DNA of 60,821 nucleotides from Ruminococcus sp. (GTDB lineage Bacteria > Bacillota > Clostridia > Oscillospirales > Ruminococcaceae). This document shows positions 8,614 to 43,653 of this stretch, piece after piece. The notes below the pieces were generated by a model. The model saw only the letters and a list, made by a program, of their open reading frames with translations. It did not search any database and was not told the DNA's origin. How positions within the stretch are numbered: the stretch's first letter is position 1; the number at the start of each line of letters is the position of its first letter. The position numbers and the translations under genes are program-made. The stretch is from positions 1 through 60,821 of the forward strand of contig JAISIH010000012.1 of the NCBI GenBank assembly GCA_031262105.1, given 5' to 3'.

Positions 8614-8642
8614 TTGATTTTACCTTGTCGTTATGATATAAT
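8614..8642 (+). promoter_or_regulatory. Sigma70-type promoter for the CheY-like/MshEN-CheX-like pair
   Basis: TTGATT - 17 nt - TATAAT, located upstream of the ATG at 8689. Confidence 0.7.
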
Positions 8643-8688: not shown

Positions 8689-9081
8689 ATGTATTCGGGT
8701 TTGAAGGTTCTTCTCTGTGATGATTCGCTGATGATAATCAAAAAAATGGGTGACGTCTTAAAGTCGCTCGGCGTTTCTGTTTTGCAGACTGCGCTTGACG
8801 GAGAGCAGGCGGTTAAGCTCTTTAAGCTGACGAAGCCCGATGTGGTTTTCATGGATCAGGTTATGCCCAACAAAACCGGGCTTGAAGCCTTAAAAGAGAT
8901 TAAAGCTTATCATCCCGACGCAATCGTTTTCATGCTTTCGTCGATGGGTACAATCTCGAAGCGTGAAGAAGCCGAGAAGCTCGGCGCAAGAGGTTTTCTT
9001 CAAAAGCCCGTCAGCGCCGATGATGTTAAAACAATACTTGAACTCGTTAAAGCCGAACTTGAGAGCAAAAACGAAGAATAG
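8689..9081 (+). CDS. CheY-like single-domain response regulator
   Basis: LKVLLCDDSLMIIKKMGDVL, VFMDQVMP, MLSSMG, LQKPVS receiver motifs; the longer ORF start at 8551 would run through the promoter. Confidence 0.92.
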   Translation: MYSGLKVLLCDDSLMIIKKMGDVLKSLGVSVLQTALDGEQAVKLFKLTKPDVVFMDQVMPNKTGLEALKEIKAYHPDAIVFMLSSMGTISKREEAEKLGARGFLQKPVSADDVKTILELVKAELESKNEE

Positions 9082-9099
9082 AATGGAGATAAAACATAT

Positions 9100-9924
9100 A
9101 TGTTGACTCAACTTTTCGGTAATTATCTGTTAAAACAACACTTAGTTTCGCCGTCACACCTTATCGAAGCACTTCGCGAAAGCTCTTCGACCCGTGTTAA
9201 ACTCGGGGTTTTAGCGATTGATGCAGGGCTTATGACGCCCGAACAGGTTGACGAAATTCACGAACTTCAAAGGATTATGGACAAACGTATCGGCGACCTT
9301 ATGGTAGAAAAAGGTTATCTTTCTCCCGAACAGATTGCCGTACTGCTTAAATCGCAAAAGAGCGGGCACCTTATCCTCGGACAGGCGCTTATCGACAACG
9401 GACACATGACAACCGCCCAGTTCGCGGACGCAATACGCCAATTTAAGATTGACAACAACATCACCGACGACGATTTTTACGACGTTAAGGACGAACTCAC
9501 CGAAAAGATGCTCGGGAGGTTTTATAAACTTAACGGGAATGTTGCCGGGGAAGAACACCTTGTCGAATATGTTTCGCTTCTGTTTAAGAACCTTATCCGC
9601 TTCGTCGGCGACGATTTTGTTCCGAATAAGATTGAGAAGCTTGACACAACCGCTTCCGGCGCAAAACAGCGTATCCGCCACGGTCTTTCCGCGATAACGA
9701 TTATTGATGCGGACGAGAATACGATGGTTGAATTCGCTTCGCGCTTCTCGAACGAATCCCTGTCCATGAACGACGACTACACAAAAGCCTGCATAAGCGA
9801 GTTCCTTAACCTACATAACGGGCTTTTCGCGGTCAAGCTTTCAAACAACGAGGGTCTCGAAATCGAGCTTGAACCCCAAAAATACTACGAGCAGATGGAC
9901 CTTTCAGGTCTCGGAAACCTCTAA
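9100..9924 (+). CDS. Protein with four MshEN-like 24-aa repeats and a CheX-like C-terminal domain
   Basis: Four 24-residue repeats with 5-residue spacers in aa 5-115; C-terminal SEFLNLHNG fits ExxNxxxG of CheC/CheX-type phosphatases. Confidence 0.7.
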   Translation: MLTQLFGNYLLKQHLVSPSHLIEALRESSSTRVKLGVLAIDAGLMTPEQVDEIHELQRIMDKRIGDLMVEKGYLSPEQIAVLLKSQKSGHLILGQALIDNGHMTTAQFADAIRQFKIDNNITDDDFYDVKDELTEKMLGRFYKLNGNVAGEEHLVEYVSLLFKNLIRFVGDDFVPNKIEKLDTTASGAKQRIRHGLSAITIIDADENTMVEFASRFSNESLSMNDDYTKACISEFLNLHNGLFAVKLSNNEGLEIELEPQKYYEQMDLSGLGNL

Positions 9925-9980: not shown

Positions 9981-10033
9981 AATACCCTGACTAAACTGAC
10001 AAAATACATTTTTGTCATTAAAGTCAGGGTATT
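9981..10033. repeat. Hairpin repeat copy 1
   Basis: AATACCCTGACT...AGTCAGGGTATT outer arms plus an inner TGACAAAA/TTTTGTCA helix. Confidence 0.9.
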
Positions 10034-10172
10034 TTTATAATTAAATTTTGCTCTGCCTATGAAAATATGCAAAATTGGTTAAATATGATTTTTAATTTAA
10101 CGCTTTAGTGCGATGATTATTATTTAGGCGAGCGGATTTAAGATTTGTTTTAGATTAAGATTTATTTTATAG

Positions 10173-10227
10173 AAATACCCTGACTAAACTGACTAAATTC
10201 ATTTTTGTCATTAAAGTCAGGGTATTT
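10173..10227. repeat. Hairpin repeat copy 2
   Basis: AAATACCCTGACT...AGTCAGGGTATTT, near-identical to copy 1; inner helix interrupted by substitutions. Confidence 0.9.
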
Positions 10228-10248
10228 TTAAATTTAACAATTTAACGC

Positions 10249-22120: not shown

Positions 22121-24184
22121 ATGAATAAACGGACAAGCATTAAGAACAGAATTATGTTTTCGGTCCTTGCAATAATTATCGCATTGATGCTCGTCATGGT
22201 GGTAACGATTTCGCTTGTTTCATCTAACACAACGACTTCGCTCGTGACTGATTTGGTTGACAATCGCGTTCAGGCGTACGCCGCACAGCTTGAAACAATC
22301 AACGGCGAATCCTACTCTACGGTTGAACTCCTCCGAGAACAGGTTTATGAAACGCTTAATTCAAGCGACACGGGTTTACAGAAGTCGAACAGAATTGTGG
22401 CTATGCTTGAAAGCGCGCTTGCTTCAAACGGCGATGCGGGGGCTTATTGGGCGGCGTTCGAGCCGGATATCCTCCCTGAGGCGGTTTTTTCAAGCTCGAC
22501 AATTGTAACGGACACTAATCTGCGCTTTGTTCCCTGCGTTTCGCGTAATTCCGACGGCTCATTTTTAATCGAACCGCTTGCAGGAATCGGAGACCCGGCT
22601 ACGGAATTTTACGAGGGTGCGAAAAATTCCGGAAAACCCTACATAACAGAACCTTTCGCATACGCGTACGGCGGCGTTGAGTCGAATGTTTATTCAATCT
22701 GCCTCCCGATGATACAGGGCGGAAAAGTAATCGGTGTAATCGGCGCAGACATTATGCTTGTGAGTGCGGACGAACTTATGGCGGACGCGAAAATTTTAGA
22801 GAACGGTTACGTATTCCTCCTTTCCTCCGGCGGCACAGTTATAACAAGCCCCACGCCGGAATATGTTCTACAGCCCTATTCATCAATTTCCTATCTTGAG
22901 GAAGTCGGGGATAAAATCGAACAGACCGCGAAAGACGGCACAGAATGGTACGGCGAAGCAGAGGGAAGGATGCTTTATTTCATCCCGGTAAAGACCGGCG
23001 ATGTGCCGACCAATCTTGTAATGGGCGGAACGGTGCTTAATTCGGAATTTAATTCTTCGACAACGGCTCTCACGGTTATTATCGTAATTTTCGGGGTTGC
23101 AATTGTGCTGCTTGTTGCGCTGGCGGTGTTTATTACCGTTAATCGGGCAATTAAGCCGCTTGAAGAAATTATCGACGGCGCAAGGCATATAAGCGTCGGC
23201 GATACGGCTTCTATTACAATTCAAAAAACCGATGCTAATACAAAGAATGAAATTGAGCTTCTTGCGAATGCTTTCGTTGTTATGGCGGACAGCATTAAGG
23301 AGCAGGCGAAGCTTATCACGGCGGTTTCCGAGGGCGATTATTCCTCCCACGTTGCGGTGCGTTCGGACGGCGACATAATGAATATTGAAATTAACCGCAT
23401 GATCGACTCACTCAATGTTACATTTGAAAAAATCCGCTCGTCGTCGCTTCAGGTTAAAAACGGCGCGGAGCAGATTAGCAACGCCGCAGAGTCGCTCGCT
23501 TCGGGTTCTCAAGAGCAAGCCGCAACCATCGAGGAACTCAATGCAAGCCTCACCGATGTTGCTTCACAGGCAAATCAAAACGCCGAAATGGCGCAAAATG
23601 CATATGCGCTTTCCGAAAAAATCCGCACGAATGCACAAAAGGGCAACGCACAGATGAACGACCTTAAAACGGCGGTTGGTGAGATTGAGTCTGCATCGCA
23701 CGACATATCAAAGGTTATAAAAGTTATCGACGACATAGCCTTCCAGACAAATATTTTAGCCCTTAATGCGGCTGTCGAAGCGGCGAGAGCGGGCGAAGCT
23801 GGGAAAGGCTTCTCGGTTGTTGCGGACGAGGTTAGAAACCTTGCATCAAAATCCGCAGAAGCGGCGAAGGAAACCGGCGCATTAATCGAAAATTCCATTC
23901 AAAAATCGAATCAAGGCGCAGCAATAGCGGCAGAAACCGCCGCATCGCTTGATGAAATTGTTGCGGGGATTAACGAAAGCGCGGCGGTTGTCCACAACAT
24001 TTCAGAGGGTTCAACGGAGCAAAAAACAGCCCTCATAAACATCAACACCGCCCTCGAGCAGTTCTCCGACGTTGTTTCAAGAAACTCCGCAACCGCCGAA
24101 GAAAGTGCCGCCGAAAGCGTCGAACTTACCGAACAGGCAGAGCTTCTTGACGAAAGCATTAAAGAATTTAAGCTTGCGAAGTAA
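22121..24184 (+). CDS. Methyl-accepting chemotaxis protein with Cache-type sensor and HAMP
   Basis: TM-Cache-TM-HAMP; hairpin tip [49 protein letters not shown]. Confidence 0.95.
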
Positions 24185-26249: not shown

Positions 26250-28856
26250 TTAGCTTAATGTTCTGCAAAGTTTTGCCGCTTCTTCAAATTCGGCGTGTAA
26301 GATTTGCGCCGCAATTTCGGTGATAACCTCTTCTGTCTGCTCAAGCCAATCCTTTTCGCGGAGTGCCGCGATGAGTTTGTCCGCTGTGTCGGTGTCGTAA
26401 TTATCGCAGGCGGCGGCGATTTCAAAAAGCGTTTTATGCAAAAATTCGGTGTCTTCTGTTTGCGTTTCGTTCTTTTTTTGGGGCGTGATTTTTTCGGTAA
26501 AGGCGGTTAATTTTTCGATAAAATTGGGCGTGTTTTTTTCGATATAATCATGATTTTCTTCACGCCCGGCGGTTTCAAGAAGCCTTGCAAGCTCGGACAG
26601 CTCGTTGTTGCCGACGTTTGCGAGGGCGGATTTCATGGCATGGGCGGTTGTTACAAAAAGCTCGTTTTTCCAAAGCTCCGATAGTATCGGAATTGCCTTT
26701 TTTGCGTCGCGTAAAAATACTTCGATAAGTTTCGGTGAAATGCCGTCGTTCGCAGGTTCGGGCAGGGGTAAATTTTTCGCCGTGTTAAATTCGGCAGCCT
26801 TTTTTTCATTTCGTACAAAACGATTGAGAGAGGTGTTCAGGCGGCGAATATCAATCGGTTTTGAGATAAAATCGTCGAAACCTTTTTCGCGAAACATCGC
26901 TTCATTCCCGGTCAGCGCGTTCGCCGTCAGCGCGACAATCGGCAGTTTATACCCGCCGGCGCGGAGCTTCTCGACAGTTTCAATGCCGTCCATCTGCGGC
27001 ATCATATGGTCCATGAAAATTATGTCGTAAGTCTTCCCGGAGTTAACGAGATCAATCGCCGCAAAACCGCTTGTGACGGTCTCAACCGTAATTCCGTACG
27101 GTCTTATAAGCCCCTCTGCGACATAAAGATTTGTCTCAACGTCGTCAACAACAAGCACCTTTCCGTACGGCATATATTCGCGGATAACCTGCATTTTTGC
27201 GGTCTGTTTATCGCGGGAATATGAAAAGTTTGAAAGATTCGCGGCAAGTTCCGCACCGATAATTTTATCCGCCGAGACTTTTTGCGGAACGCTTACCGTA
27301 AAGGTACTCCCGACGCCGTATTCAGACTCAATCGTCATCGTTCCGTTCATGAGAACGAGGAGGCGTTTTGTGATACTCATTCCGAGCCCTGTTCCCTCGG
27401 TTGTGCGGTTTGTTTCAAGGTTAAAGCGGGCGAATTCGTTCCCGAGAACCGCCGCATCCTCGGGCTTCATGCCCTGCCCGGTGTCGCTGATGCTGATTAT
27501 GAGGTTAACGCCGGTTGCGGTTTTTTCGGACGAAACGTCCATTTTAACGCTTCCGCGGTCGGTGTATTTGAAGGCGTTTGTTAAGATATTGCCGAGGATT
27601 TGTTTTATACGAAGCTCATCGCCGAAAAGTTTTGCGGGGGTATCTTCTGAAATTTTAAGGAAAAATTCGATCGGTTTTGAACCAATCCGCGTGATATTAA
27701 GCTGAATTGTATCGTTAATGAGGGACGGCAGATCGTATTTCGCCGGCAGGATTTCAAGCTTGCCCGTTTCAATCTTTGAGAGGTCTAAAATGTCGTTTAT
27801 AATCCCGAGAAGACCATGCCCGGAAGAGTAAATTTTCGTGATTGCTTCGACTGTATCGTTCGGCAGATCATTCCGCCCCATCTGCATCTGCGATATGCCG
27901 ATAATTGCGTTCATCGGCGTGCGGATTTCGTGGGACATTGTCGCTAAAAATTTCGATTTCGATATATTTGCGCGGACAGCGTTTTCCTTTTCGCGTTCCG
28001 CTTCAATCTTCGCTTCAACCATTGCGGAAACTTCCGTCACGTCGATGAACATTCCGCTTGTTTCACCCTCAAGTTTATCGCAGACTATCTTAAAATAATG
28101 CGGCACGCCGTTCACGTCAATTTTTTCAATGCCTTCAAAAAAACCCTCGTTTTCGATAATATGCGCGAACATTATTTTTATCTCGAAATCGCGGAAAAGA
28201 TCAAGCGCAGGTCTCCCGACAGCGTAGCGTGACGGGCAATCGGCGAACTCCGCCATCTTTTCGGAAATGTAAGAAATCCTCCGCATATCGTCAACGATAA
28301 GCATCATATTCGGCGTCGATTGAAGCAGTGAAGCAAGCGCATCCAAGCCCTTTTGCGCAGCGGTATTACGGACGGAAAGGCGATACGAGAGAATCATCAT
28401 GAATATGAAGCCGTAAAGGAACAGCAAACCGTCGATAAGCATCTCGCGCATATCGGCAACGCCCGGAATTCGGAGGACTGTGAAATAGAGCGGAAAATTA
28501 ACGACAATTGTTATGATAAAGAAGGTAACAACGGACTTAAAATTAAGGTAGATACAAACAATTCCGACGGTACAAAGCATTGATATGTAATAATACTCGA
28601 AGTCGTGAAAATATATTGCGCCGCCTAAGAATACGCCCATAATTACAATGCCGGTAACTATCGGAACGTATCTGCTGCTCTTAAGGCGCGTCTGCGTTAT
28701 AATTAAAATTGCCGTTGTAATTGTGCAAAGTACAATTAAACTTTCGCCGTATTCGATGTTTTGCCCGGTGATTATTCCTTCGAGATACCGAAGTATTCCA
28801 TAAAGCATAACACCGAAACGTCCGACATGATTTGCGATTTTATATTCACTGCTCAT
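26250..28856 (-). CDS. Membrane hybrid histidine kinase (TM-PAS-HK-REC-Hpt)
   Basis: MSHEIRTPMNAIIG H-box, GTGLGMSI G-box, VVDDVETN/FMDHMMPQMDG receiver, TAHAMKSALANVG Hpt. Confidence 0.93.
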   Translation of the reverse strand: MSSEYKIANHVGRFGVMLYGILRYLEGIITGQNIEYGESLIVLCTITTAILIITQTRLKSSRYVPIVTGIVIMGVFLGGAIYFHDFEYYYISMLCTVGIVCIYLNFKSVVTFFIITIVVNFPLYFTVLRIPGVADMREMLIDGLLFLYGFIFMMILSYRLSVRNTAAQKGLDALASLLQSTPNMMLIVDDMRRISYISEKMAEFADCPSRYAVGRPALDLFRDFEIKIMFAHIIENEGFFEGIEKIDVNGVPHYFKIVCDKLEGETSGMFIDVTEVSAMVEAKIEAEREKENAVRANISKSKFLATMSHEIRTPMNAIIGISQMQMGRNDLPNDTVEAITKIYSSGHGLLGIINDILDLSKIETGKLEILPAKYDLPSLINDTIQLNITRIGSKPIEFFLKISEDTPAKLFGDELRIKQILGNILTNAFKYTDRGSVKMDVSSEKTATGVNLIISISDTGQGMKPEDAAVLGNEFARFNLETNRTTEGTGLGMSITKRLLVLMNGTMTIESEYGVGSTFTVSVPQKVSADKIIGAELAANLSNFSYSRDKQTAKMQVIREYMPYGKVLVVDDVETNLYVAEGLIRPYGITVETVTSGFAAIDLVNSGKTYDIIFMDHMMPQMDGIETVEKLRAGGYKLPIVALTANALTGNEAMFREKGFDDFISKPIDIRRLNTSLNRFVRNEKKAAEFNTAKNLPLPEPANDGISPKLIEVFLRDAKKAIPILSELWKNELFVTTAHAMKSALANVGNNELSELARLLETAGREENHDYIEKNTPNFIEKLTAFTEKITPQKKNETQTEDTEFLHKTLFEIAAACDNYDTDTADKLIAALREKDWLEQTEEVITEIAAQILHAEFEEAAKLCRTLS

Positions 28857-29824: not shown

Positions 29825-32641
29825 TTACAGCCTTTCGATGATTTTCGCTTCTGCCGTTTCAAATTCCGCATGAAGCAAATAATCTTCAATACTTTCGAGG
29901 AAAATCGTCATATCGCCGGAGAGTTCATACTCCCTCATCTTCGCTAAAACTCTATTTACACCGCTTTCGTCATAGTCACCGCAAAATTTCGATGCGGATA
30001 AGAGCAGCTCTTTTTGTACCTCTTCGGAAATACTGCCCATGCCGTTCTGCCTTTTAACGGGAGCATTTTTTTCTTCAAAAGCTTTTAGTTTTTCGAGCAG
30101 TTCCGGCAGTTTTTCCGATACGGTATTAATGTCGTTATCCTTCGCCGCGAATTCGATAGCTTTTGCGGCTTCCGAAATATCATCTTCGCCCACATTCGCC
30201 GCCGCCGATTTCATACCGTGGGCAGTTATCGCAAGGCTTTTTAAGTCTTTATTTTCAAAATCCTCGGGGAGCGAAACAAGTGCTTTTTTTATGTCTTTTA
30301 TAAAAATCGAAACGAGCTTAACATCAGGATTTTTCAGCGTCGCGGACGATTCGACGGGTCTTTCTTCTTTCGGGCGATTGCCGCGTACAAGATTTAAGAG
30401 AACACGATTAAGATCTCGAATATCAATCGGCTTCGAGATAAAATCGTCAAAACCGTTCGCTCTGAACATCTCATCATTTCCGACGATAACATTCGCCGTA
30501 AGCGCAACGATCGGCGCGGTGTAATTTTTACTGCGGATAATTTTTGTCGCCTCAATGCCGTCCATCTGCGGCATCATATGATCCATGAAAATTACGTCGT
30601 AAGTGTTGCCGTCGTCGATAAGGTTAATTGCCGCCTGACCGCTCGTTACCGTAGAAACCTTAATGCCGTATGGCTTAAGAAGCCCCTCCGCAACATACAG
30701 ATTTGTTTCGACATCATCGACAACAAGCACCTTTCCGTAAGGCATATATTCGCGGTTTATATGCATTTTTTCGGCACGATTATTCTGCGAATAACTAAAG
30801 TCACAAAGCTTTCCGGCAAGGTCGCTTCCGATAATCCGATCGGAGATTTTTTTCTGCGGCAACCTAACCGTAAATGTACTTCCGACGCCGTATTCGGACT
30901 GTATTTCCAGTTCGCCGTTCATAAGCGAAATAAGCTTTTTTGTGATGCTCATGCCGAGCCCGGTGCCTTCAAAATTGCGGTTTCTGTCGAGGTTAAAACG
31001 CACAAACTCGCTCCCGAGATTTTCTAAGTCTTCTTTCTTCATGCCCTGCCCGGTATCGGTAACAGAAAAGCTCAGGACTAAACCGTTGTCGGTGTCATTA
31101 GACGAAATATTAAGCACGACGCTGCCCTTGTCGGTATACTTAAATGCATTCGATAAAATATTGTTTAATATCTGCTTAATCCGCAGTTCGTCACCAAAAA
31201 GCGAAGCGGGGATTTTTTCCGAGACGTTAAGCTTAAATTCAATCGGTTTTGTACCGATGCGGGTGATATTTAGCATGACTGTATCGTTAATAAGCGACGG
31301 CAGATCGTACTCAATCGGGAGCAGTCCGAGCTTGCCGGTTTCAATCTTCGATAAATCCAAAATGTCGTTTATAATTCCGAGCAGACCGTAACCGGAAGTA
31401 TAAATTTTGCCGATTGCATCGACACAGTCAGAGGGCAGGTCTGTCCTGCTCATCTGCATCTGCGAAATGCCGATTATTGCATTCATAGGCGTGCGGATTT
31501 CATGAGACATTGTTGCAAGGAAGTTACTTTTTGCCTTGTTCGCCTGTTCTGCAAGTTCGGTAAGTTCCTTGAGTTCGGTATTCTGGCGTTCAACTTCATC
31601 AAGAAGCATGAAATATTCCGTAACGTCCGAAATTGTGACAGAATAATTTTTCTGATTTTCTGAAAAATAAACCCCGAATTTGTATTTTTTCATTACACCG
31701 CCGTCATTTACCGTTAATCGTCCCTCAGTTATGGTATTGTCGGGCGAAAAAAGGTTTTCCGGCTCAAATTCCGACACGCTGTCTTTAAGAAAACCTAAAA
31801 AATCTTGAATGGTTGTTTCGGACGGCTTTATTATAAATTTCGGGAAAAATACGTTGAGTGTTGCGTTTGCATCGAGGATAACATCATCTTCATCTCTGCA
31901 AAGCAAAATGCAGTCGTGGTAGGTGTCAAAAACATGGGTTAGGAGTGCACTTTTAAAGCTGAATAACTTGTTCTTATATAAAACAGCGAAGAATAATGCA
32001 ATCGTTATCAATGCGCCTATTGCCGTGAAATCATAATTAAAGCCGAAATTTGAAAAGACAACGTTAAATACGAAAGGTATCATCATGGCATAGCCGGAAA
32101 GCACAACTCCGCGTTTTACCCTTTTGTCGGTAACGGTTTTGATGCTGAAACGGGTCAGAATCAAGAGTACCAACACAAGCACGAAGTAGTCAACGTACAT
32201 ATGTATCTTAAAGAGAAGCCCTTCAATTGCGCCGCCGAAAGCAACATTATCGTATGATGCAAAATATTGGTAATGAAGCGGATTTGTTACTAAAAGGATA
32301 ATATCAATGAGCGGAACGATAATGCAGATATATCGGAGCAAACGCGATTTTGATAACGGCGAATCGACAAGGAACAGAATAAACCGCAAAAATGCCCACG
32401 GCAGAATACAGATCGCAACCATTTTCAGCGTGTAGATAAAAGGAATGACTTCATTGGAACTTATGTAAAGAAGCCCCGAAAACAAATTATAACAGGCGGT
32501 ATCAATGCCCAGAATAAAGAAACTCACGAGTCCCTTATTGCGATAGTCGGAAAAAGCCACACGGACAACAAAATACAAACACGCGGTCGCGCCTAAGACA
32601 GAAACTGCAAAATACAGAACAAGGAACACGGTTAAATCCAT
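29825..32641 (-). CDS. Membrane hybrid histidine kinase (7TM-like N-terminus, PAS, HK, REC, Hpt)
   Basis: Same HK/REC/Hpt motifs as its paralog; multi-TM N-terminus. Confidence 0.93.
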   Translation of the reverse strand: MDLTVFLVLYFAVSVLGATACLYFVVRVAFSDYRNKGLVSFFILGIDTACYNLFSGLLYISSNEVIPFIYTLKMVAICILPWAFLRFILFLVDSPLSKSRLLRYICIIVPLIDIILLVTNPLHYQYFASYDNVAFGGAIEGLLFKIHMYVDYFVLVLVLLILTRFSIKTVTDKRVKRGVVLSGYAMMIPFVFNVVFSNFGFNYDFTAIGALITIALFFAVLYKNKLFSFKSALLTHVFDTYHDCILLCRDEDDVILDANATLNVFFPKFIIKPSETTIQDFLGFLKDSVSEFEPENLFSPDNTITEGRLTVNDGGVMKKYKFGVYFSENQKNYSVTISDVTEYFMLLDEVERQNTELKELTELAEQANKAKSNFLATMSHEIRTPMNAIIGISQMQMSRTDLPSDCVDAIGKIYTSGYGLLGIINDILDLSKIETGKLGLLPIEYDLPSLINDTVMLNITRIGTKPIEFKLNVSEKIPASLFGDELRIKQILNNILSNAFKYTDKGSVVLNISSNDTDNGLVLSFSVTDTGQGMKKEDLENLGSEFVRFNLDRNRNFEGTGLGMSITKKLISLMNGELEIQSEYGVGSTFTVRLPQKKISDRIIGSDLAGKLCDFSYSQNNRAEKMHINREYMPYGKVLVVDDVETNLYVAEGLLKPYGIKVSTVTSGQAAINLIDDGNTYDVIFMDHMMPQMDGIEATKIIRSKNYTAPIVALTANVIVGNDEMFRANGFDDFISKPIDIRDLNRVLLNLVRGNRPKEERPVESSATLKNPDVKLVSIFIKDIKKALVSLPEDFENKDLKSLAITAHGMKSAAANVGEDDISEAAKAIEFAAKDNDINTVSEKLPELLEKLKAFEEKNAPVKRQNGMGSISEEVQKELLLSASKFCGDYDESGVNRVLAKMREYELSGDMTIFLESIEDYLLHAEFETAEAKIIERL

Positions 32642-32860: not shown

Positions 32861-32889
32861 TTGCAATTTGTCGCAAAATATGTTATGAT
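32861..32889 (+). promoter_or_regulatory. Sigma70-type promoter of the glycan operon
   Basis: TTGCAA - 17 nt - TATGAT. Confidence 0.6.
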
Positions 32890-32941
32890 TAGGTGGGTAG
32901 GAGTAAACCTTGACACTTATATTTTATGGAGACTCAATATT

Positions 32942-34657
32942 ATGAATAAAAATATCTTAGGTGAGGCTGTATTCGACAAGGTTACAGCGGAGGAAATTCT
33001 CGAAAAACTGGCTCTCGCGGAGGGTTATCGCGATGAGATTTTACATTGCAGTGACGTAAAAGTTTGTTTTTCGTTCCTTGATAAGATAACGGAGATTTTT
33101 TCAAAAATCTTAGAAATTAAGGAGAGTTCTGCTGTCGAACTTAAGAAAAATCGTCTGTTTTTGCAAGCTGAATGTGCTGTCTATTCGATTTTTAATGTTC
33201 GAGAGGATTATAAAAAATACAATTCGCTCGAAAAAGCAACGTACAGGCTCGAATTCGAGACTTTTCCGATTATCGAAATAATAATCGCAACCTTCACTTA
33301 CTTTAATTTCGCCGCGCTTGAAAAATCGTCCGAAGAAGAATTCTGGAATCCCGAAACCGGGAAAGCGAAGGATTTGTGGCGGAACAGATACATAGCGGAA
33401 AGCATAAAAACCGGCGAATATAAATACGAACTTTCGATTATGGTTGTAGCATTTAACAAATGGGAAATGACAAAACAGTGCGTTGAAAGTCTGTTAAAAT
33501 GGATGCCGGCGGATATTAACTACGAACTTATTTTAGTTAATCACGGTTCAACAGACGGCGTTAAAACGTATTTTGAAAGCGTAAAACCGACTAAACAGAT
33601 TGATATAAAGATTAACTCCTGTTCAATTGTACAATGCCTCGATAAAGTAATCGAGGGAAGATACTTTCTTTCGATATCAAATGACGTAATTATGACCCCG
33701 AATGCGGTTGAAAATATGCTTCGTGCCTGTAAAGAAGACCCGAAAATCGGCTTTATTGTGCCGACAACGCCGAACGTTTCGGGCAATCAGGCAATAAATA
33801 TCGGCGAGTATAAAACTGCCGACGAACTCGATGTTCTTGCGGCGAAAAATAATGTTTATAACCCGCTAAAACACGAGGAACGCGTCAGCCTCTGCAATCC
33901 GCTTTCGTTTTTGCCGACCGCTGTTTATTTTGACCCGGACGTTTATGCCGGCGGAAAAATCTACAGAATGGATGAACATAAATATTCTTTTCCGGACGAT
34001 TTATTATCAATGTCTGTTCGCAGAAAAGGATACAAAGTTATTCTGCAAAAAGACGCTTTTTGTCACCATATCGGGAGTGCTACGCTTAGAACTGAAACAA
34101 CGGCACAAGAAATGAATGAGTCGGTAAAAAGATACGTCCAAGGCGCGAAAAAGTACAAGAGGTATTACGGAATTGATCCTTGGGCAATCGGGAAATGCTT
34201 CACCGGAAGCCATCTAATAGCTATGTTGGACACGATTGAAAACTTCGGGTTCGACGGAAAGATAAATGTCCTCGGGATTAACTGCGGGCTCGGTTCAGAC
34301 CCGCTTAAAATTAAAGATATTTATAAAGAATACAAAGGCAACACCGACGTTCACGTAACAAATTTCACTAATTTCTCGCGGTTTGAAACCGACCTTAAAA
34401 CAGTCAGCGAACGTGCAGTTTACGCCGAGGATTTAATGGCTCTCTTAAAAGCAGAAACGCCGGAAAGTTATCATCATGTTGTCATGGAAATTCCGGCGAA
34501 TAAAGAGTATCATACGCAGGAATTTATAGATCAGTGTTTTGATCTTCTTACATACTGCGGCTCGCTTTTTATCTGGTGTGTTGAAGACTACGACGAGGAT
34601 AATGAGTGCAAGTCGAACTACAATGCTTATCCCTTTCACGCAATAGTAAAAAAATAA
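32942..34657 (+). CDS. Family 2 glycosyltransferase with C-terminal methyltransferase-like Rossmann domain
   Basis: GT-A core LSIMVVAFNKWEMTKQCVESLLKW...ELILVNHGSTDG; C-terminal INVLGINCGLGSDPL resembles SAM motif I. Confidence 0.75.
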   Translation: MNKNILGEAVFDKVTAEEILEKLALAEGYRDEILHCSDVKVCFSFLDKITEIFSKILEIKESSAVELKKNRLFLQAECAVYSIFNVREDYKKYNSLEKATYRLEFETFPIIEIIIATFTYFNFAALEKSSEEEFWNPETGKAKDLWRNRYIAESIKTGEYKYELSIMVVAFNKWEMTKQCVESLLKWMPADINYELILVNHGSTDGVKTYFESVKPTKQIDIKINSCSIVQCLDKVIEGRYFLSISNDVIMTPNAVENMLRACKEDPKIGFIVPTTPNVSGNQAINIGEYKTADELDVLAAKNNVYNPLKHEERVSLCNPLSFLPTAVYFDPDVYAGGKIYRMDEHKYSFPDDLLSMSVRRKGYKVILQKDAFCHHIGSATLRTETTAQEMNESVKRYVQGAKKYKRYYGIDPWAIGKCFTGSHLIAMLDTIENFGFDGKINVLGINCGLGSDPLKIKDIYKEYKGNTDVHVTNFTNFSRFETDLKTVSERAVYAEDLMALLKAETPESYHHVVMEIPANKEYHTQEFIDQCFDLLTYCGSLFIWCVEDYDEDNECKSNYNAYPFHAIVKK

Positions 34658-34669
34658 CTGAGGTTTTCA

Positions 34670-36454
34670 TTGAAAAAGAGAGTAGCGGATTTTATCGCGG
34701 ATTTCCTTGCCGACAACGGTATAACACAGCTTTTTTCCGTCGTCGGCGGGGGAGCAATGCACCTTAACAACGCTTTCGGCACAAACAAGCGGATTAATGT
34801 CATTTATAACCATCACGAGCAGGCGTCGGCGATCGCCGCTGAAGGGTATAGCAGGATTGACAATAGGATTGCGGCGGTTTGCGTTACGAGCGGACCGGGC
34901 GGAACGAACGCGCTTACCGGCGTTCTTTGCGCGTGGCAGGACAGCATACCTCTTATCGTCATAAGCGGGCAGGTTCGGAGCGATATTACCGTTGAAAGTA
35001 CGGGGCTTGACCTTCGCCAATTCGGCGAGCAGGAATATTATATCGTTCGTTCTGTAAAACCTATGACGAAATATGCCGTTACCGTTTTTGATGCGAATAT
35101 GATAAAATTCCATCTCGGAAAGGCGATATATCTTGCCGCGCACGGGCGGCGCGGTCCTGTCTGGGTCGATGTTCCGCTTAACATTCAGGGTGCAATTATT
35201 GAAACTGAAAACCTCCCGGAATTTGTCCCCGAAAACGAAATTTCGGTTTCGGAAGAAACTATCTCGAAGATAATAACTGAGATAAAAAATGCAAAACGCC
35301 CGGTGATTATTGCAGGCTCCGGGATTAGGACCAGCGGCAGTCTTAAGGCGCTCAAAAACCTCGCTAAAAGGCACAATATACCCGTTGTAACGCCGACTTC
35401 GACGGTCGATTATTTTTCAGCCGATTTTGAAAATTATTATGGAATGTACGGCACAATCGGGGGACGCTGCGGGAATTTTATAGTGCAGAATTCCGATCTG
35501 TTAATTTGCCTCGGCGCAAGAATGAGTTTTAAGCAGATCGGTTTTAACTATCAAAAATTTTCGCCCGATTCGCGTAAAATCGTCGTTGATGCGGACGGTG
35601 AAGAACTAAAGAAACCCACAATAAAAATAGACCTCCCTGTTTGCGCAGATGTCAGCGAGGTTATCGGAAAATTAATTGCCGTCGATTTTGATACGAAACA
35701 ATCGGAAAACTGGATTTCATACTGCAAATTTATTAAAGCAAAATACATTAACGAGCAAAGAAATTTTACCGAAAATATAAGCGCGTATCGTTTCGGAGAA
35801 GTGTTTTTAGAGAGTGCAGACAAAGACGTTATCGCCGTTTTAGGCAACAACTGCGCGGCGGTCAGTCTCTTACAACTCGGCATAAAAAAGCAGGGTCAGA
35901 GAATTTTCGGCAATGTTAACTGCGGAACGATGGGGTACGATATTCCGGCAAGTATCGGCGCGGCAATTGCAGCCGGCGGACCTGTATATTGCTTAACCGG
36001 CGACGGCAGTTTTCAGATGAATATTCAAGAACTTCAAACGATTGTTCACAACAATCTGCCGGTGAAAATTGTTGTCTTCAATAACTCCGCATATCAGGCG
36101 ATTGTTCAGACGCAGACGAATTTTTTCGACGGCGTTCTCAGCGGCTGTACTGCCAAAACCGGCGTAAGTTTCCCGAGTTTTGAAAAAATCGCGTATGCTT
36201 ATGGTTTTCCGTTTAAGAAAATTACGAAAACGAGCGAAATTGAATCAGCTGTAAATTGGCTCCTTAATGAAAAATCGTTTTGCCTTCTTGAACTTATACA
36301 GAATGAATCCGACCCGATTATTCCGAAGCTTTCGAGCAAGCGGCTCCCTGACGGCGGCATGGTTTCTCCGCCGATTGACGACCTCTTCCCGTTTTTGACG
36401 GAAGATGAATATAACGCCGCTTTGTATGAAAATTTTGAGGGCAAAGCGATATGA
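34670..36454 (+). CDS. Thiamine-pyrophosphate-dependent enzyme, acetolactate synthase-like (YerE-like)
   Basis: FSVVGGGAMHLNNAF, catalytic-Glu region NHHEQASAIAAEGYSR, TPP motif GDGSFQMNIQELQTIVHNNLPVKIVVFNN; TTG start. Confidence 0.85.
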   Translation: MKKRVADFIADFLADNGITQLFSVVGGGAMHLNNAFGTNKRINVIYNHHEQASAIAAEGYSRIDNRIAAVCVTSGPGGTNALTGVLCAWQDSIPLIVISGQVRSDITVESTGLDLRQFGEQEYYIVRSVKPMTKYAVTVFDANMIKFHLGKAIYLAAHGRRGPVWVDVPLNIQGAIIETENLPEFVPENEISVSEETISKIITEIKNAKRPVIIAGSGIRTSGSLKALKNLAKRHNIPVVTPTSTVDYFSADFENYYGMYGTIGGRCGNFIVQNSDLLICLGARMSFKQIGFNYQKFSPDSRKIVVDADGEELKKPTIKIDLPVCADVSEVIGKLIAVDFDTKQSENWISYCKFIKAKYINEQRNFTENISAYRFGEVFLESADKDVIAVLGNNCAAVSLLQLGIKKQGQRIFGNVNCGTMGYDIPASIGAAIAAGGPVYCLTGDGSFQMNIQELQTIVHNNLPVKIVVFNNSAYQAIVQTQTNFFDGVLSGCTAKTGVSFPSFEKIAYAYGFPFKKITKTSEIESAVNWLLNEKSFCLLELIQNESDPIIPKLSSKRLPDGGMVSPPIDDLFPFLTEDEYNAALYENFEGKAI

Positions 36455-37488
36455 AAAACTTTAACATAGGCAGTATCGAAGTCGGAGGAACGCCGCTCGT
36501 TATTCCCGAAATAGGGATAAATCACGGCGGTTCGCTTGAAGTTGCCTTAAAGATGATTGACGCGGCGGCGGCGGCGGGGGCAAGACTTATTAAGCATCAG
36601 ACGCATATTGTCGAGGATGAAATGTCACTCGCGGCGAGGGAGATTATCCCCGGGAATTCCGATAAATCTATCTACGAAATAATGGCGCGTTGTGCACTTT
36701 CTGAAGACGAAGAACGCGAAATGATGCAGTATACAAACGGCTTGGGACTCGAATTTATAAGCACTCCGTTTTCGAGAGCGGCGGCGATTCGCCTCGAAAA
36801 ATTTGGTGTAAAGGCTTATAAAATCGGCTCGGGCGAGATGAATAATCTGCCGCTTATAAAGCATATTGCGGCGTACGGAAAACCGATGATTGTTTCAACC
36901 GGCATGAATTCGATCGAAGCGATTGAAGAAACGGTCAATATTTTAGAGCAAAAAAATGTTCCCTACGCGCTTCTTCATACGACAAATTTATACCCGACAA
37001 AACCTTCGCAGGTGCGGTTCGGCGCGATGATGAAGATGGCTGAACATTTCCCGGGGATACCGTTCGGGCTTTCAGACCACACGCTTAACAATAACGCTTG
37101 TATCGGGGCTGCCGCACTCGGCGCAAGTATCGTTGAGCGGCATTTTACCGATGATAAAACCCGCCCGGGCGAAGATATAATTTGTTCAATGGACGGGCGT
37201 GAACTATCGGAACTTATAAATGCAACCCGTGAGGTTTATCAGATGCGAGGCGGCGAAAAAACCGCTCTCGAAGAAGAAAAGGTAACGATTGATTTTGCTT
37301 TTGCGACGGTTGTTGCAACTGACGATATAAAGAAAAATGAGAAATTTTCAGAAGAAAATATCTGGGTAAAACGCCCGGGGACGGGTGAAATTTTCGCAAA
37401 GGATTTTGAAAAAATTATCGGAAAAACCGCAGCATTTGACATTAAAAAAGATACACACTTAAAAAAGGGTATGATATGTACAGATTAG
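36451..37488 (+). CDS. N-acetylneuraminate synthase family (NeuB/LegI-like) with C-terminal SAF domain
   Basis: IPEIGINHGGSLEVA, KIGSGEMNNLPLI, YPTKPSQVR, GLSDHT motifs. Confidence 0.92.
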   Translation: MKNFNIGSIEVGGTPLVIPEIGINHGGSLEVALKMIDAAAAAGARLIKHQTHIVEDEMSLAAREIIPGNSDKSIYEIMARCALSEDEEREMMQYTNGLGLEFISTPFSRAAAIRLEKFGVKAYKIGSGEMNNLPLIKHIAAYGKPMIVSTGMNSIEAIEETVNILEQKNVPYALLHTTNLYPTKPSQVRFGAMMKMAEHFPGIPFGLSDHTLNNNACIGAAALGASIVERHFTDDKTRPGEDIICSMDGRELSELINATREVYQMRGGEKTALEEEKVTIDFAFATVVATDDIKKNEKFSEENIWVKRPGTGEIFAKDFEKIIGKTAAFDIKKDTHLKKGMICTD

Positions 37489-38645
37489 TGTTTTTGACCG
37501 GCACGAGGGCGGATTACGGTAAGCTTAAATCAATCATGCAGCTTTGCGAAAAGGACAGTTCTTTCGAGATTTACGTTTACGTTACGGGGATGCATCTTTG
37601 CAGTGAATACGGTCAAACGGCGGACGAAATAAAAAAGGACGGCTACAACAATATTATCATCAACGAAGACTATAAACAGACCGAAAAAATGGACGAAAAT
37701 ACCGCGCTTACAATGCTTGCTTTTTCAAAATTTGTCCGTGAAATAAAGCCCGATTTAATCGTAGTTCACGGCGACAGAACAGAGCCGCTTGCGGGCGCGG
37801 CGGTCGGAGTGCTTAATAACATAAAGGTTGCGCATATCGAGGGCGGGGAGGTTACGGGGACGGCGGACGAATTCATGCGGCACGCTGTCACAAAGCTTTC
37901 GAGCTATCATTTTGTCGCTAACGACGAAGCGAAATTCCGCGTTTTACAGCTTGGCGAAAAGGAAGAAAATGTGTTCGTAATCGGTTCGCCCGACATTGAC
38001 ATAATGCTTTCGGATAGCTTGCCGAAACTTATTGATGTCAAAGAAAAATACAGCGTTAATTTTGATAAATACAGCGTCTGCATTTACCACCCGGTAACGA
38101 CCGATAATGACACTGCGAAAAAGGCGGAAAATTTAGCGGAAGCACTAAAAAAATCAGAGAAAAATTACGTTATAATAAAATCGAATAATGATTTTAACAA
38201 TGAGATTATCATTGAAAAATTCGACAGATTAAGGGGCAATAAAAACTTTGTTTTTTATGATTCGCTTCCGTTTGAAGAATTCTTAACGCTTCTTAAAAAC
38301 GCTGAATTTATCATCGGGAATTCCAGCGCGGGGGTCAGAGAAGCGTGTGTGTACGGCGTTCCGGCGATTGATTTGGGGACGCGTCAGAACAAGCGTTATA
38401 ACACGCAAATCATGCGAAATATTATCCACACCGATGAAAACACAGACGAGATTTTAACCGCGATTAGCAAAGCAAATGAACATAGATTTTTTTCAAGATA
38501 TTTCGGCAACGGCAATTCTGCGACTTTATTCTGCGCGGCGATAAAAAACCGTTTGGCAAAAGAAGAAAGCGTGCAAAAAGTTTTTGTTGACCTTGAAGTT
38601 ACATCAAAATCTATCGAGAATTACATCAACGAGGTTTGTTATTGA
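37476..38645 (+). CDS. UDP-N-acetylglucosamine 2-epimerase, hydrolysing type (NeuC/LegG-like)
   Basis: LTGTRADYGKLKSIM, VHGDRTEPLAGA, HIEGGEVTGTADEFMRHAVTKLS, IGNSSAGVREA. Confidence 0.92.
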   Translation: MYRLVFLTGTRADYGKLKSIMQLCEKDSSFEIYVYVTGMHLCSEYGQTADEIKKDGYNNIIINEDYKQTEKMDENTALTMLAFSKFVREIKPDLIVVHGDRTEPLAGAAVGVLNNIKVAHIEGGEVTGTADEFMRHAVTKLSSYHFVANDEAKFRVLQLGEKEENVFVIGSPDIDIMLSDSLPKLIDVKEKYSVNFDKYSVCIYHPVTTDNDTAKKAENLAEALKKSEKNYVIIKSNNDFNNEIIIEKFDRLRGNKNFVFYDSLPFEEFLTLLKNAEFIIGNSSAGVREACVYGVPAIDLGTRQNKRYNTQIMRNIIHTDENTDEILTAISKANEHRFFSRYFGNGNSATLFCAAIKNRLAKEESVQKVFVDLEVTSKSIENYINEVCY

Positions 38646-39496
38646 AAAATGTTATTATCACGGGTGCGACAGGGTTTGTCGGGTTTGCGCTGACAAGGGA
38701 GCTTATAAAGCAGGGCTTTGACGTCACCGTCCTTTGCAGAAAAGGCTCTGAGAGGCGGCGGCGGTTCGACGGGCTGCCTGTAAAAATCATTGAGTGTGAC
38801 TTATCGAATGAAGAAAAATTTAGCCTTTGCGGCGAATTTGATACATTCTATCATCTTGCTTGGGAGGGCGGACGAAACGATTTTGAGAGCCAATACAAAA
38901 ATATTTCGCGGACGATTTTTTGTCTTGAACTTGCGAAAAAATACGGTTGCGAAAGGTTTATCTGCACCGGGTCGCAGGCTGAATACGGCGAGGTTCCCGC
39001 TGACGTTTTAATAACCGAAGATACTCCGTTAAACCCTGTGACAGCGTATGGTTCGGCGAAGGTTGCGGCGTATTATCTTGTGAGAGATTTCGCGAAACGT
39101 TTGGGGGTTGATTACTCATGGGTGAGAATTTTCAGCGTTTACGGTCAGAATGATAATCCGAATTCGCTTTTGCCACAGATTTTAGCCGCAAAAAAAGAGA
39201 ATCGCACCTTCAAAATGTCAACCGACGGCGAGCATATCTGGAACTATCTTCACGAAGACGACGCAGCAAGAGGGCTTATCGCAATCGGAAAATGTGCTGA
39301 AACGAACACAATTTTTAACCTTGCGGGGTCTGAAAATATGCCGCTTCGGTGGTTTATTTCTAAGGTTTATGACGGGGTAGAATACGGGACGGAGAGAAGT
39401 TTTATTAATCTTAATGTGAGCATTGAAAAATCGGTTGCCGCAATCGGTGAATATTCACATACAACATTTATTGATGATATACTAAGCGAAAAATAA
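38642..39496 (+). CDS. NAD-dependent epimerase/dehydratase (SDR family)
   Basis: NVIITGATGFVGFALTREL Rossmann motif, YGSAKVAAYYLVRDF YxxxK. Confidence 0.88.
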   Translation: MKNVIITGATGFVGFALTRELIKQGFDVTVLCRKGSERRRRFDGLPVKIIECDLSNEEKFSLCGEFDTFYHLAWEGGRNDFESQYKNISRTIFCLELAKKYGCERFICTGSQAEYGEVPADVLITEDTPLNPVTAYGSAKVAAYYLVRDFAKRLGVDYSWVRIFSVYGQNDNPNSLLPQILAAKKENRTFKMSTDGEHIWNYLHEDDAARGLIAIGKCAETNTIFNLAGSENMPLRWFISKVYDGVEYGTERSFINLNVSIEKSVAAIGEYSHTTFIDDILSEK

Positions 39497-39510
39497 TTGG
39501 AGGTACTGTA

Positions 39511-40659
39511 ATGAATTCATTACGTTCTTGTCCGATATGCGGTGAATACGAAACAAGATTTAAGATGGCGCAGATTTTCTCTATTATTGATTCTGTAGGG
39601 TTTTTAGAACAATTTAATGTTGTACAGTGTATGTGTTGCGGAATGTATTATGCAGACAGAGTTCCGGACCAGAATCAACTTGATTTATACTACAAGGAAT
39701 ACTCAAAATATGAGAATCATGATGATTTGAATTTTGATAATTCTCGTTATGAACTGATAACCGACACTATAAAACAAACTTTTCCGAACCGTGATATTTC
39801 TATTCTTGATGTAGGTTGCGGAAGAGGTAATCAACTATTGAGCTTAAAAGAATCCGGCTACAATAATATCACCGGACTTGAGGTTTCAAGTAATAACTGT
39901 GATTACATAAAAACGAGATACAGTATTAACACCATAAATTGCTCGCTGTTTGATATACCGCAAAAAATGCGAAATAATAAATATGACTGCATTATCGCCG
40001 ATGGTATTCTTGAACATTTAGGTGACGTACGAAGTGCCTGCAAAATCCTTTCAGGGTTATTATCCTTTTCGGGTGTTATGTTTATAGTAGTTCCGAATTC
40101 AGAAAAATTTATAGATAATGTCGGATTTCCTTTTGAGGAAATTTCCGGTGAACACATTAATTATTTTAATACTCATTCGCTGCAAAAACTAATGAGCTTA
40201 TATTCAATGAGTTTATTAAATAAAGTTTCGTTCTCTGCCCTGCAACCTAATATATTATGTACTTTTAGATTTGATGAGACTATGATTAATAATTCATTAG
40301 AACGATATTTTCAATTATCAGAAAAAGCTATTGAGAATTTCAATAGTATAATTGATGAATATGTTATTAATCAGATCCCGGTCTACGTTTGGGGTGCAGG
40401 TGCATTGTGCCAAAGATGTCTGGCTGCAACGAATTTAGTCAATGCAAATATAGTGAAAATCCTTGACTCAAATCAAAACATACAAGGTCACAAAATTCAA
40501 GATATACCGATTTGTTCTCCTGATATTATATTAAGTGAAAATGTTGAGGACATTATAGTAATTACGTATCATGCGGCAAATAGTATAAAACGGCAACTCA
40601 ATCAGTACAACTATAAGAAAAGGGTTATCTTTTGGCCGGACAACCCAAAGGAGAATTAA
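39511..40659 (+). CDS. Sugar C-methyltransferase-like SAM enzyme with N-terminal Zn motif
   Basis: CPIC...CMCC pairs, ILDVGCGRGNQLL SAM motif I, C-terminal VYVWGAGALCQRCL domain. Confidence 0.8.
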   Translation: MNSLRSCPICGEYETRFKMAQIFSIIDSVGFLEQFNVVQCMCCGMYYADRVPDQNQLDLYYKEYSKYENHDDLNFDNSRYELITDTIKQTFPNRDISILDVGCGRGNQLLSLKESGYNNITGLEVSSNNCDYIKTRYSINTINCSLFDIPQKMRNNKYDCIIADGILEHLGDVRSACKILSGLLSFSGVMFIVVPNSEKFIDNVGFPFEEISGEHINYFNTHSLQKLMSLYSMSLLNKVSFSALQPNILCTFRFDETMINNSLERYFQLSEKAIENFNSIIDEYVINQIPVYVWGAGALCQRCLAATNLVNANIVKILDSNQNIQGHKIQDIPICSPDIILSENVEDIIVITYHAANSIKRQLNQYNYKKRVIFWPDNPKEN

Positions 40660-40661
40660 AA

Positions 40662-41684
40662 ATGTCATCACTTAAACGCGCAAAGATATATTCAAGCAAA
40701 CGACTCAACCTCAGCTCGGTTTTGCCATTGGAAACCCCGTTATCGGTAGAGATTGATATATGCTCTATCTGCAATTTTGCGTGTAAATTTTGTTTTCAAC
40801 ACGATAAAGAGTCGTTAAAAAAATACGCTTTTAAGTTGAAAGCTATGGAATATGGGTTATTTACAAAATTAGTAGATGATATATGCAATTTTCCTCAAAA
40901 GCCAAAAAAACTAAAACTTTTTGAGTTCGGAGAACCGTTGCTTAACAAGAATATCGGCGAGATGATTTGTTATGCAAAATCCGTAAATTGTGTTGAAGCG
41001 GTTGAAATTACTACTAACGGCTCTTTGTTAACCCCGACAACTGTTGACTCAATTATTGACGCCGGGATTGACAGAATAAACATTTCTATAGAAGCGATGA
41101 ATGATTCTGACTACTGCGAAATAACAGGTAAGAACATTAAATTTTCTGACATTGTCAGTAACGTAAAATACCTATACAATAACAAAAAAAATTGTATAGT
41201 GTATGTGAAAATTGCAGACATAAACCTCTCTCAAACTGAACGCGAACGTTTTTACGAAGTTTTTCAAAATATATCAGATGAAATGTATATTGAACATATT
41301 TCACCTATATGGCGGGGTACCGATTCTGTCGGTTATATTAACGATGACGGAATCGGGTCTTATGGACAAGTAATAAAAAGCGATAAAAAAATATGCACAT
41401 TTCTCTTCACGCGATTAGTTATTAATTCTGACGGAGAAGCAGTGCTGTGCTGTGTTGATTGGAAAAGTCAATATATAATCGGCGATGCAAAAAAAGAAAG
41501 TCTATATAACATTTGGAATGGCAATGCTTTAAAATCGCTGCAATTAAAACACTTAAATCTGAACAAAGATAAAATTGAAATTTGTTCAAATTGTAATGTT
41601 TATAAAACTTCAACAATTGATGATATTGATTCCGGAAGAGAGTCTATATTGTCGCGTTTTGAAAGAAAAGATGAGGTTAAATAA
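40662..41684 (+). CDS. Radical SAM/SPASM protein A
   Basis: CNFACKFC (CxxxCxxC) and C-terminal cysteines CC...CSNCNVY. Confidence 0.9.
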   Translation: MSSLKRAKIYSSKRLNLSSVLPLETPLSVEIDICSICNFACKFCFQHDKESLKKYAFKLKAMEYGLFTKLVDDICNFPQKPKKLKLFEFGEPLLNKNIGEMICYAKSVNCVEAVEITTNGSLLTPTTVDSIIDAGIDRINISIEAMNDSDYCEITGKNIKFSDIVSNVKYLYNNKKNCIVYVKIADINLSQTERERFYEVFQNISDEMYIEHISPIWRGTDSVGYINDDGIGSYGQVIKSDKKICTFLFTRLVINSDGEAVLCCVDWKSQYIIGDAKKESLYNIWNGNALKSLQLKHLNLNKDKIEICSNCNVYKTSTIDDIDSGRESILSRFERKDEVK

Positions 41685-42679
41685 TGATTAGGGAAACAAA
41701 AACGCGTACTGATTTGGCAAAAGAAATCCCGCTTCAGACACCGCTCGTTGTACATATTGATACGAATAATACCTGCAATTTCAGATGCAAGTTTTGTACT
41801 ACCGGTGATCATGATCTTCTCAAAAAAAACAACAGACCTTTAGGTGAAATGTCCTATATTACTTTCTGCAAAGTAATTGACGACTTAACTCAATTTGAAC
41901 GTCCTGTTAAGGATTTGCTGATGCATAAAAACGGTGAGCCGTTATTACATAAAGATATAGCAAAAATGATTTCTTATGCGAAATCGAAGAATGTTGCGAA
42001 TCGCATTATCCTTGTTACAAACGGTTCAAAGTTAACACCGAGTTTATCAAGAGACCTTGCAGCTACAAACGTGGACATCATACAAATCTCAGTCTCTCAT
42101 GTAACAGACGAGGGCTATTTGAAAATTTCTAACGTTAATGTATCATATGATGATATAGTCGGAAAAGTTGCGTACTTATATGCAAACATTAATCATGATA
42201 AAACTCGTTTGATAGCAAAGCTGATGGATACCGGATTAACTGACGGCGAGAGGCAAAAATTCATTGATGATTTCAGTATTATAACTGACGAAGCAAATAT
42301 AGAACATCCGATTAGTTACACACAACCTACCGTAAAAGATACGTCGCTCGGACTCGGCAATGGGACAACAAACGATAATTACAGAGCGGTATATAAGGAT
42401 ATATGCACGCTGCCTTTTTATACAATGAATATAAATTTTAACGGCAATGTGTCTGCTTGCAGTTTTGATTGGCGGCATAAACACATCATGGGCAATGTTT
42501 TAGAAAATACATTATTTGAAATTTGGAACGGCGAAAAATACAGAAACTTCAGAATAATGCAAGCCTCGAAACAAAGAGACAAAAATGAATTTTGCGTCGG
42601 CTGTGAGGCGGTATATAATCTCATAGATAACATTGACAGCTTTGGTGATGACATATTAAAACGAATTAAAATAGAATAA
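41684..42679 (+). CDS. Radical SAM/SPASM protein B
   Basis: CNFRCKFC (CxxxCxxC) and C-terminal CSFDWRHKHIMGN...CVGC. Confidence 0.9.
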   Translation: MIRETKTRTDLAKEIPLQTPLVVHIDTNNTCNFRCKFCTTGDHDLLKKNNRPLGEMSYITFCKVIDDLTQFERPVKDLLMHKNGEPLLHKDIAKMISYAKSKNVANRIILVTNGSKLTPSLSRDLAATNVDIIQISVSHVTDEGYLKISNVNVSYDDIVGKVAYLYANINHDKTRLIAKLMDTGLTDGERQKFIDDFSIITDEANIEHPISYTQPTVKDTSLGLGNGTTNDNYRAVYKDICTLPFYTMNINFNGNVSACSFDWRHKHIMGNVLENTLFEIWNGEKYRNFRIMQASKQRDKNEFCVGCEAVYNLIDNIDSFGDDILKRIKIE

Positions 42680-42716
42680 AAGACAATGCCTCGTGAAAAA
42701 CTTAAGGAAACAAATT

Positions 42717-43619: not shown

Positions 43620-43653
43620 TCAAATAAATTTCATACGGGACGGTCTTAAAAAC

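Follow-up and report, generated by a model that had tools for sequence, protein, structure and literature searches.

What is known of the links between chemosensory pathways and c-di-GMP comes mostly from Gram-negative bacteria. That the c-di-GMP module MshEN occurs together with CheX was mentioned in one clause by Wang et al. 2016 (PMC5013675), and a full-text literature search for the combination of MshEN and CheX found it only in this paper. In CheX an asparagine orients the water and an acidic residue forms a salt bridge with the lysine of the response regulator (PMC3035606). A pair of CheY and CheC, DifD/DifG of Myxococcus xanthus, belongs to a pathway connected with behaviour that depends on type IV pili (PMC4671073). 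Here we describe a gene of Ruminococcus sp. in which four MshEN-like repeats precede a CheX-like domain. The best reading of its product, judged from the sequence, is a putative c-di-GMP-gated phosphatase of the chemotaxis type, as had been proposed in the original prediction; the CheY partner, the pilus association and a premature stop go beyond the content of that prediction. New here are the pairing with CheY, the pattern of the catalytic residues, the association with PilB plus CheA and the stop in the analysed copy. In the literature searched, which covered few subscription journals, we found no description of the CheY pairing, the conservation pattern or the pilus association.

The window, i.e. 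the whole stretch of DNA that was analysed, comprises 60,821 nucleotides of contig JAISIH010000012.1. The positions of the gene, of its partner and of the features within and around them are given in Table 1.

Table 1. Coordinates of the CheY/MshEN-CheX gene pair and its features in the window.
Feature	Position	Strand	Details
Promoter-like site upstream of the CheY/MshEN-CheX pair	8614..8642	+	TTGATT, 17 nt, TATAAT preceded by TG; consensus match alone
Stand-alone CheY-like response regulator	8689..9081	+	130 aa; 18 bp upstream of MshEN-CheX; Pfam Response_reg 3.1e-23
MshEN(x4)-CheX gene	9100..9924	+	274 aa; ends at in-frame TAA, codon 275, 9922-9924
Repeat 1	9112..9183	+	residues 5-28; LFGNYLLKQHLVSPSHLIEALRES; in relatives F/L, F, G at positions 1-3
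Repeat 2	9199..9270	+	residues 34-57; KLGVLAIDAGLMTPEQVDEIHELQ; conserved His/Asn at motif position 21
Repeat 3	9286..9357	+	residues 63-86; RIGDLMVEKGYLSPEQIAVLLKSQ; most canonical of the four
Repeat 4	9373..9444	+	residues 92-115; ILGQALIDNGHMTTAQFADAIRQF
CheX-like domain	9553..9921	+	shortened in the window copy; Pfam CheX and Foldseek
Catalytic ExxNxxxG motif	9799..9822	+	E234, N237, N240, G241
Open frame behind the TAA	9925..9975	+	in relatives the end of the CheX domain

The promoter-like site is weak because 13 such sites are present in the region and 4.4 are expected. Two copies of a strong 64-nt hairpin, 94% alike, lie 3' of the MshEN-CheX gene (9981-10044 and 10174-10237; about -27 kcal/mol, z -7.5 and -8.3); exact matches to their 17-nt core were found, among 140 loci, solely in the window's own records. 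Elsewhere in the window there are genes for two methyl-accepting chemotaxis proteins (22121-24184 and 44958-46646), one with a dCache sensor, and for two hybrid histidine kinases with receiver domains (26250-28856 and 29825-32641), which flank a diacylglycerol-kinase-like gene. A NeuB-like sugar synthase gene (36451-37488) is located within a same-strand run (32861-44943) that is possibly a nonulosonic-acid glycosylation cluster.

The four 24-residue repeats had been predicted with a spacing of 24-5-24-5-24-5-24, and this spacing is exact: together with three 5-residue spacers the repeats occupy residues 5-115 of the protein. The BLOSUM62 score among the four repeats was 132 and the maximum of 20,000 shuffles was -9, which rules out a chance repetition. 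Self-alignment of the protein gave a positive value for lag 29 alone among lags 20 to 39, and the 111-residue repeat block could be aligned across 34 homologues with zero gaps.

Both profiles and fold comparison back the assignment of these repeats as MshEN-like. NCBIfam NF053729, a profile for an MshE-related c-di-GMP motif with a curated cut-off of 38 bits, matched the protein in two stretches (8.5e-23, 79.9 bits), and each pair of repeats exceeded the cut-off in isolation (39.8 bits for repeats 1-2, 42.9 for repeats 2-3 and 48.9 for repeats 3-4). Thermus PilF and Vibrio MshE were retrieved when solved structures were searched by sequence. A structure model of the repeat block is of low confidence (pLDDT about 59); its best Foldseek match was MshE with c-di-GMP (5htl, rmsd 1.9 A over 55 columns), with a probability of 1.00 but an E value of 0.14, followed by the c-di-GMP-bound PilF GSPII-B (rmsd 1.4).

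The C-terminal half had been described as CheX-like, and this assignment is supported by Pfam profile matches and by Foldseek. The Pfam CheX profile matched the window protein at residues 198-267 (0.0016, 18.9 bits) and a full-length neighbour with 19.1 bits, both below the cut-off of 27. This cut-off was exceeded by two distant relatives (L119 with 30.8 and L127 with 31.1 bits), and all 11 members of the first alignment (A2) matched the profile, at best with 9.4e-07. Matches to Fumarase C-terminal, DUF3867, DUF4388 and ZapA were dismissed, each being under its own cut-off. The structure model of the full-length neighbour, which is based on 7 sequences, is of low confidence (pLDDT about 59). 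With this model the top 13 Foldseek matches were CheX or CheC-like proteins (best E 2e-06). These matches show TM values to the target of 0.57-0.69 at an identity of 13-16% and include 3hzh, the Borrelia CheX-CheY complex; FliM was listed too.

The ExxNxxxG motif is present as predicted, with E234, N237 and G241, and it contains the single ExxN motif of the protein sequence. Comparison of 57 homologues revealed E or D at residue 234 in 56 of them, and N237 and G241 are invariant. In copies with an adjacent CheY, residue 234 is always an acid (55/55; Glu 52, Asp 3) and N237 is present in all. Among five copies without an adjacent CheY, Glu 234 is exchanged for Asn in L107, L135 and L136 and for Asp in L134, and it is kept in L125. 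The copies in L107 (5935-6810) and L134 (4233-5120) are divergent and come from one genus, with no CheA found and no adjacent CheY; their exchange of the Glu is possibly a natural loss of the phosphatase site. L135 (3986-4906) and L136 (4511-5416), likewise from one genus, carry second, degenerate paralogues with Asn at the Glu position and no adjacent CheY.

At 55 of 57 loci the gene for the CheY-like response regulator adjoins the MshEN-CheX gene, on one side or the other. Each of the 34 loci examined from the host's family and Clostridium has it directly upstream and on the same strand, usually within 60 bp and once at a distance of 256 bp. The class-wide set has an adjacent CheY in 21 of 23 loci, the CheY being upstream or directly downstream depending on the family; it is absent from the neighbourhood of the other two loci, and in L117 the CheY frame is broken. 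The adjacency in both orders argues for function and not for inherited position alone. The reversed order, with CheY downstream, was observed in L118-L120, L123, L124 and L126-L133, many of which have lost the Gly at position 3 of repeat 4.

All 34 partner CheY proteins compared have invariant D11, D12, D56 and K106, and S/T84 is present. The window's own genome yielded 20 receiver matches, of which only the partner CheY is a stand-alone protein, and the same holds for G106, G108 and G182 among the matches listed. The Che operons inspected contained CheA and mostly CheW, CheR and CheB; no CheY was found in them. We consider it quite probable that MshEN-CheX is the partner and the phosphatase of the adjacent CheY.

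The length of 274 aa results from an in-frame truncation, since relatives extend 18 residues further and the frame of the window copy stays open past the TAA to 9975. Among the 33 holder genomes of the family search, the window's copy is the only one with an internal stop. The complete CheX domain is not found in this copy; the lost 18 residues correspond to the last two strands in the low-confidence model, and the window allele probably lacks the complete CheX fold. The codons differ from those of the nearest relative at 105 synonymous and, counting the stop, 5 non-synonymous positions, which argues for strong purifying selection until very recently, or for the stop being an error. The window allele may be inactive, or the stop may be an error of sequencing or assembly.

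Within the host's family, 199 genomes were analysed for the distribution of the protein, and 33 of them hold MshEN-CheX. PilB is present in 32 of the 33 holders, counting one gene split over two contigs, compared with 44 of the 166 other genomes. The corresponding numbers are 30/33 and 40/166 for CheA, and 22/33 and 46/166 for FliG; three holders have no detectable CheA and one has no PilB. MshEN-CheX was found in 29 of the 40 genomes with both PilB and CheA and in 4 of the 159 others, the genomes being related, so that such co-occurrence counts are not independent events. In the presence of PilB, CheA and FliG the protein occurs in 19 of 30 genomes (11 are without the pair), and in the presence of PilB and CheA without FliG in 10 of 10. 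It is rare in genomes having CheA without PilB (1/30; 1/29 for CheA plus FliG without PilB) or PilB alone (1/33), and it is absent from the 87 genomes with none of the three. MshEN-CheX tracks PilB plus CheA, not flagella.

The ten holders with PilB and CheA but without FliG belong to six genera, the window's own included. The window genome is 80% complete and its sister genomes carry FliG; it can therefore not be counted as flagellum-less, and the ratio becomes 9/9 instead of 10/10. The nine further holders of this type have a completeness of 92-100%. In a class-wide search 25 of 393 genomes, from seven families, hold the protein. Placement within a pilus or Che operon was rejected, as the pair is located in neither of them, and the link to the pilus therefore rests on co-occurrence among related genomes.

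Repeats 1 and 4 had been regarded as the more degenerate ones in the original prediction, which is only partly right. Repeat 1 reads F/L-F-G, so that the Leu of RLG is invariably replaced by Phe, and the basic residue is missing. Repeat 4 is degenerate in family f49, where the Gly at position 3 is absent, but in the host's family it is mostly L/I-L-G and fits the extended motif (R/K/L)LG of PilF GSPII-B (PMC11731258). Repeat 2 carries a conserved His or Asn at position 21; in MshE, a Leu stacks on the ligand there. Repeat 3 keeps R-I/F-G in the host's family, and in 26 of 34 members it fits the relaxed pattern published by Wang et al. 2016.

Inspection of the ligand residues R1, L2, G3, L17 and L21 in the host's family revealed that the pair 3-4 has conservative substitutions only; its first residues are R and L, and hydrophobic residues are found at every stacking position. 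The pairs 1-2 and 2-3 carry His/Asn at position 21. Single-sequence and profile scores point to repeats 3-4 as the ligand pair, and the family profile aligned to MshE points to repeats 2-3. Repeats 3-4 are most likely the best candidate c-di-GMP site in the host's family. Binding of c-di-GMP by the repeats is plausible, best for this pair, and for the host's family we rate its chance slightly above even. Each holder genome tested has 7-32 GGDEF matches.

Our main reading is that the protein dephosphorylates CheY~P under the control of c-di-GMP and thereby acts on pilus output, and we assign to this reading a probability of roughly 40%. The two genes would form a module of a single-domain CheY and its own phosphatase, the latter consisting of a CheX-like catalytic domain with an N-terminal doubled MshEN. 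CheA would phosphorylate the partner CheY on D56. The CheX domain would place E234 into the active site of CheY, with a salt bridge to K106 of CheY, and N237 would orient a water molecule there, and the phosphate would be removed. Binding of c-di-GMP to the MshEN repeats, most likely to repeats 3-4 in the host's family, would switch or tune the phosphatase, and the level of CheY~P would become a readout of both chemosensory input and c-di-GMP level. The main output would most likely be the behaviour of type IV pili and not flagellar rotation; we lean towards a pilus output. The more general proposal, a widespread and as yet undescribed module of Clostridia through which c-di-GMP has direct control over how long CheY~P persists and a chemosensory kinase steers type IV pili, also in bacteria without flagella, is put forward as tentative.

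The repeats of a genuine CheY~P phosphatase might also be unable to bind c-di-GMP any longer and serve for docking or dimerisation, positioning the enzyme for example at the pilus ATPase with its MshEN-like N-terminus. The tight linkage to PilB would fit such a role, and so would the conserved departures from the motif in repeats 1 and 2 and the loss of the Gly of repeat 4 in f49, given that comparable changes abolish c-di-GMP binding in XpsE (PMC5013675). The hydrophobic stacking positions of repeats 3-4 argue against it, as do their R and L starts, which the extended motif allows (PMC11731258), and the scores of all repeat pairs above the NF053729 cut-off; we regard docking repeats as rather unlikely. 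The CheX-like domain, for its part, might be a non-enzymatic output adaptor in vivo that binds CheY~P and c-di-GMP and relays both to the pilus machine. A stand-alone CheY needs a target, and FliM, a relative with the CheX fold that binds CheY~P without hydrolysis, is also among the Foldseek matches. However, a pure binder would not require the catalytic acid and the Asn, which are kept in 55/55 copies next to a CheY, with the Glu mostly lost where CheY is missing, and this makes an adaptor quite improbable.

A module for flagellar chemotaxis, like CheX, CheC and FliY elsewhere, would reduce the correlation with pili to shared ancestry or lifestyle. Two thirds of the holders (22/33) do have FliG, and the sister genomes of the host are flagellate. 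Among genomes with CheA, however, holders have FliG less often than non-holders do, and MshEN-CheX is missing from 28 of the 29 flagellate genomes that have CheA and no PilB. With the nine nearly complete holders besides the window's genome that have CheA and PilB without FliG, we give this explanation little credit, and a flagellar-only role is disfavoured by the FliG-less genomes. The gated phosphatase with pilus output would be a compact candidate of two genes in Clostridia, among them flagellum-less species whose CheA has no obvious output. If c-di-GMP gates the phosphatase, both signals would be integrated in a single protein, and the role of CheA in non-flagellate Clostridia would become directly testable.

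Compared with the MshEN-CheX combination of Wang et al. 2016 (PMC5013675), the likeness lies in the presence of both domains in one protein; there it is listed, and the main text is without operon, distribution, conservation or function. With DifD/DifG the pair would share a CheY with its own CheC-type phosphatase and a pilus-linked pathway, but DifG is CheC-like and not CheX-like, a c-di-GMP module is not mentioned for it, and the pair described here sits apart from cheA. The CheX proteins of Thermotoga and Borrelia (PF13690; 1xko, 3hzh) resemble the C-terminal half in fold, in the single ExxN motif and in the adjacent CheY as presumed substrate; they differ by the N-terminal sensor block found here, by the low identity of 13-16% and by the absence of the last two strands from the window copy. 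With the MshEN modules of Vibrio cholerae MshE and Thermus PilF GSPII-B and with NF053729, the repeat block has in common the 24-residue motifs, the 5-residue spacer and the helical topology, and every repeat pair passes the curated profile. In contrast to these, the protein described here has four consecutive motifs instead of two and no ATPase; the Leu of the motif is replaced by a conserved Phe in repeat 1, and position 21 is His/Asn in repeat 2.
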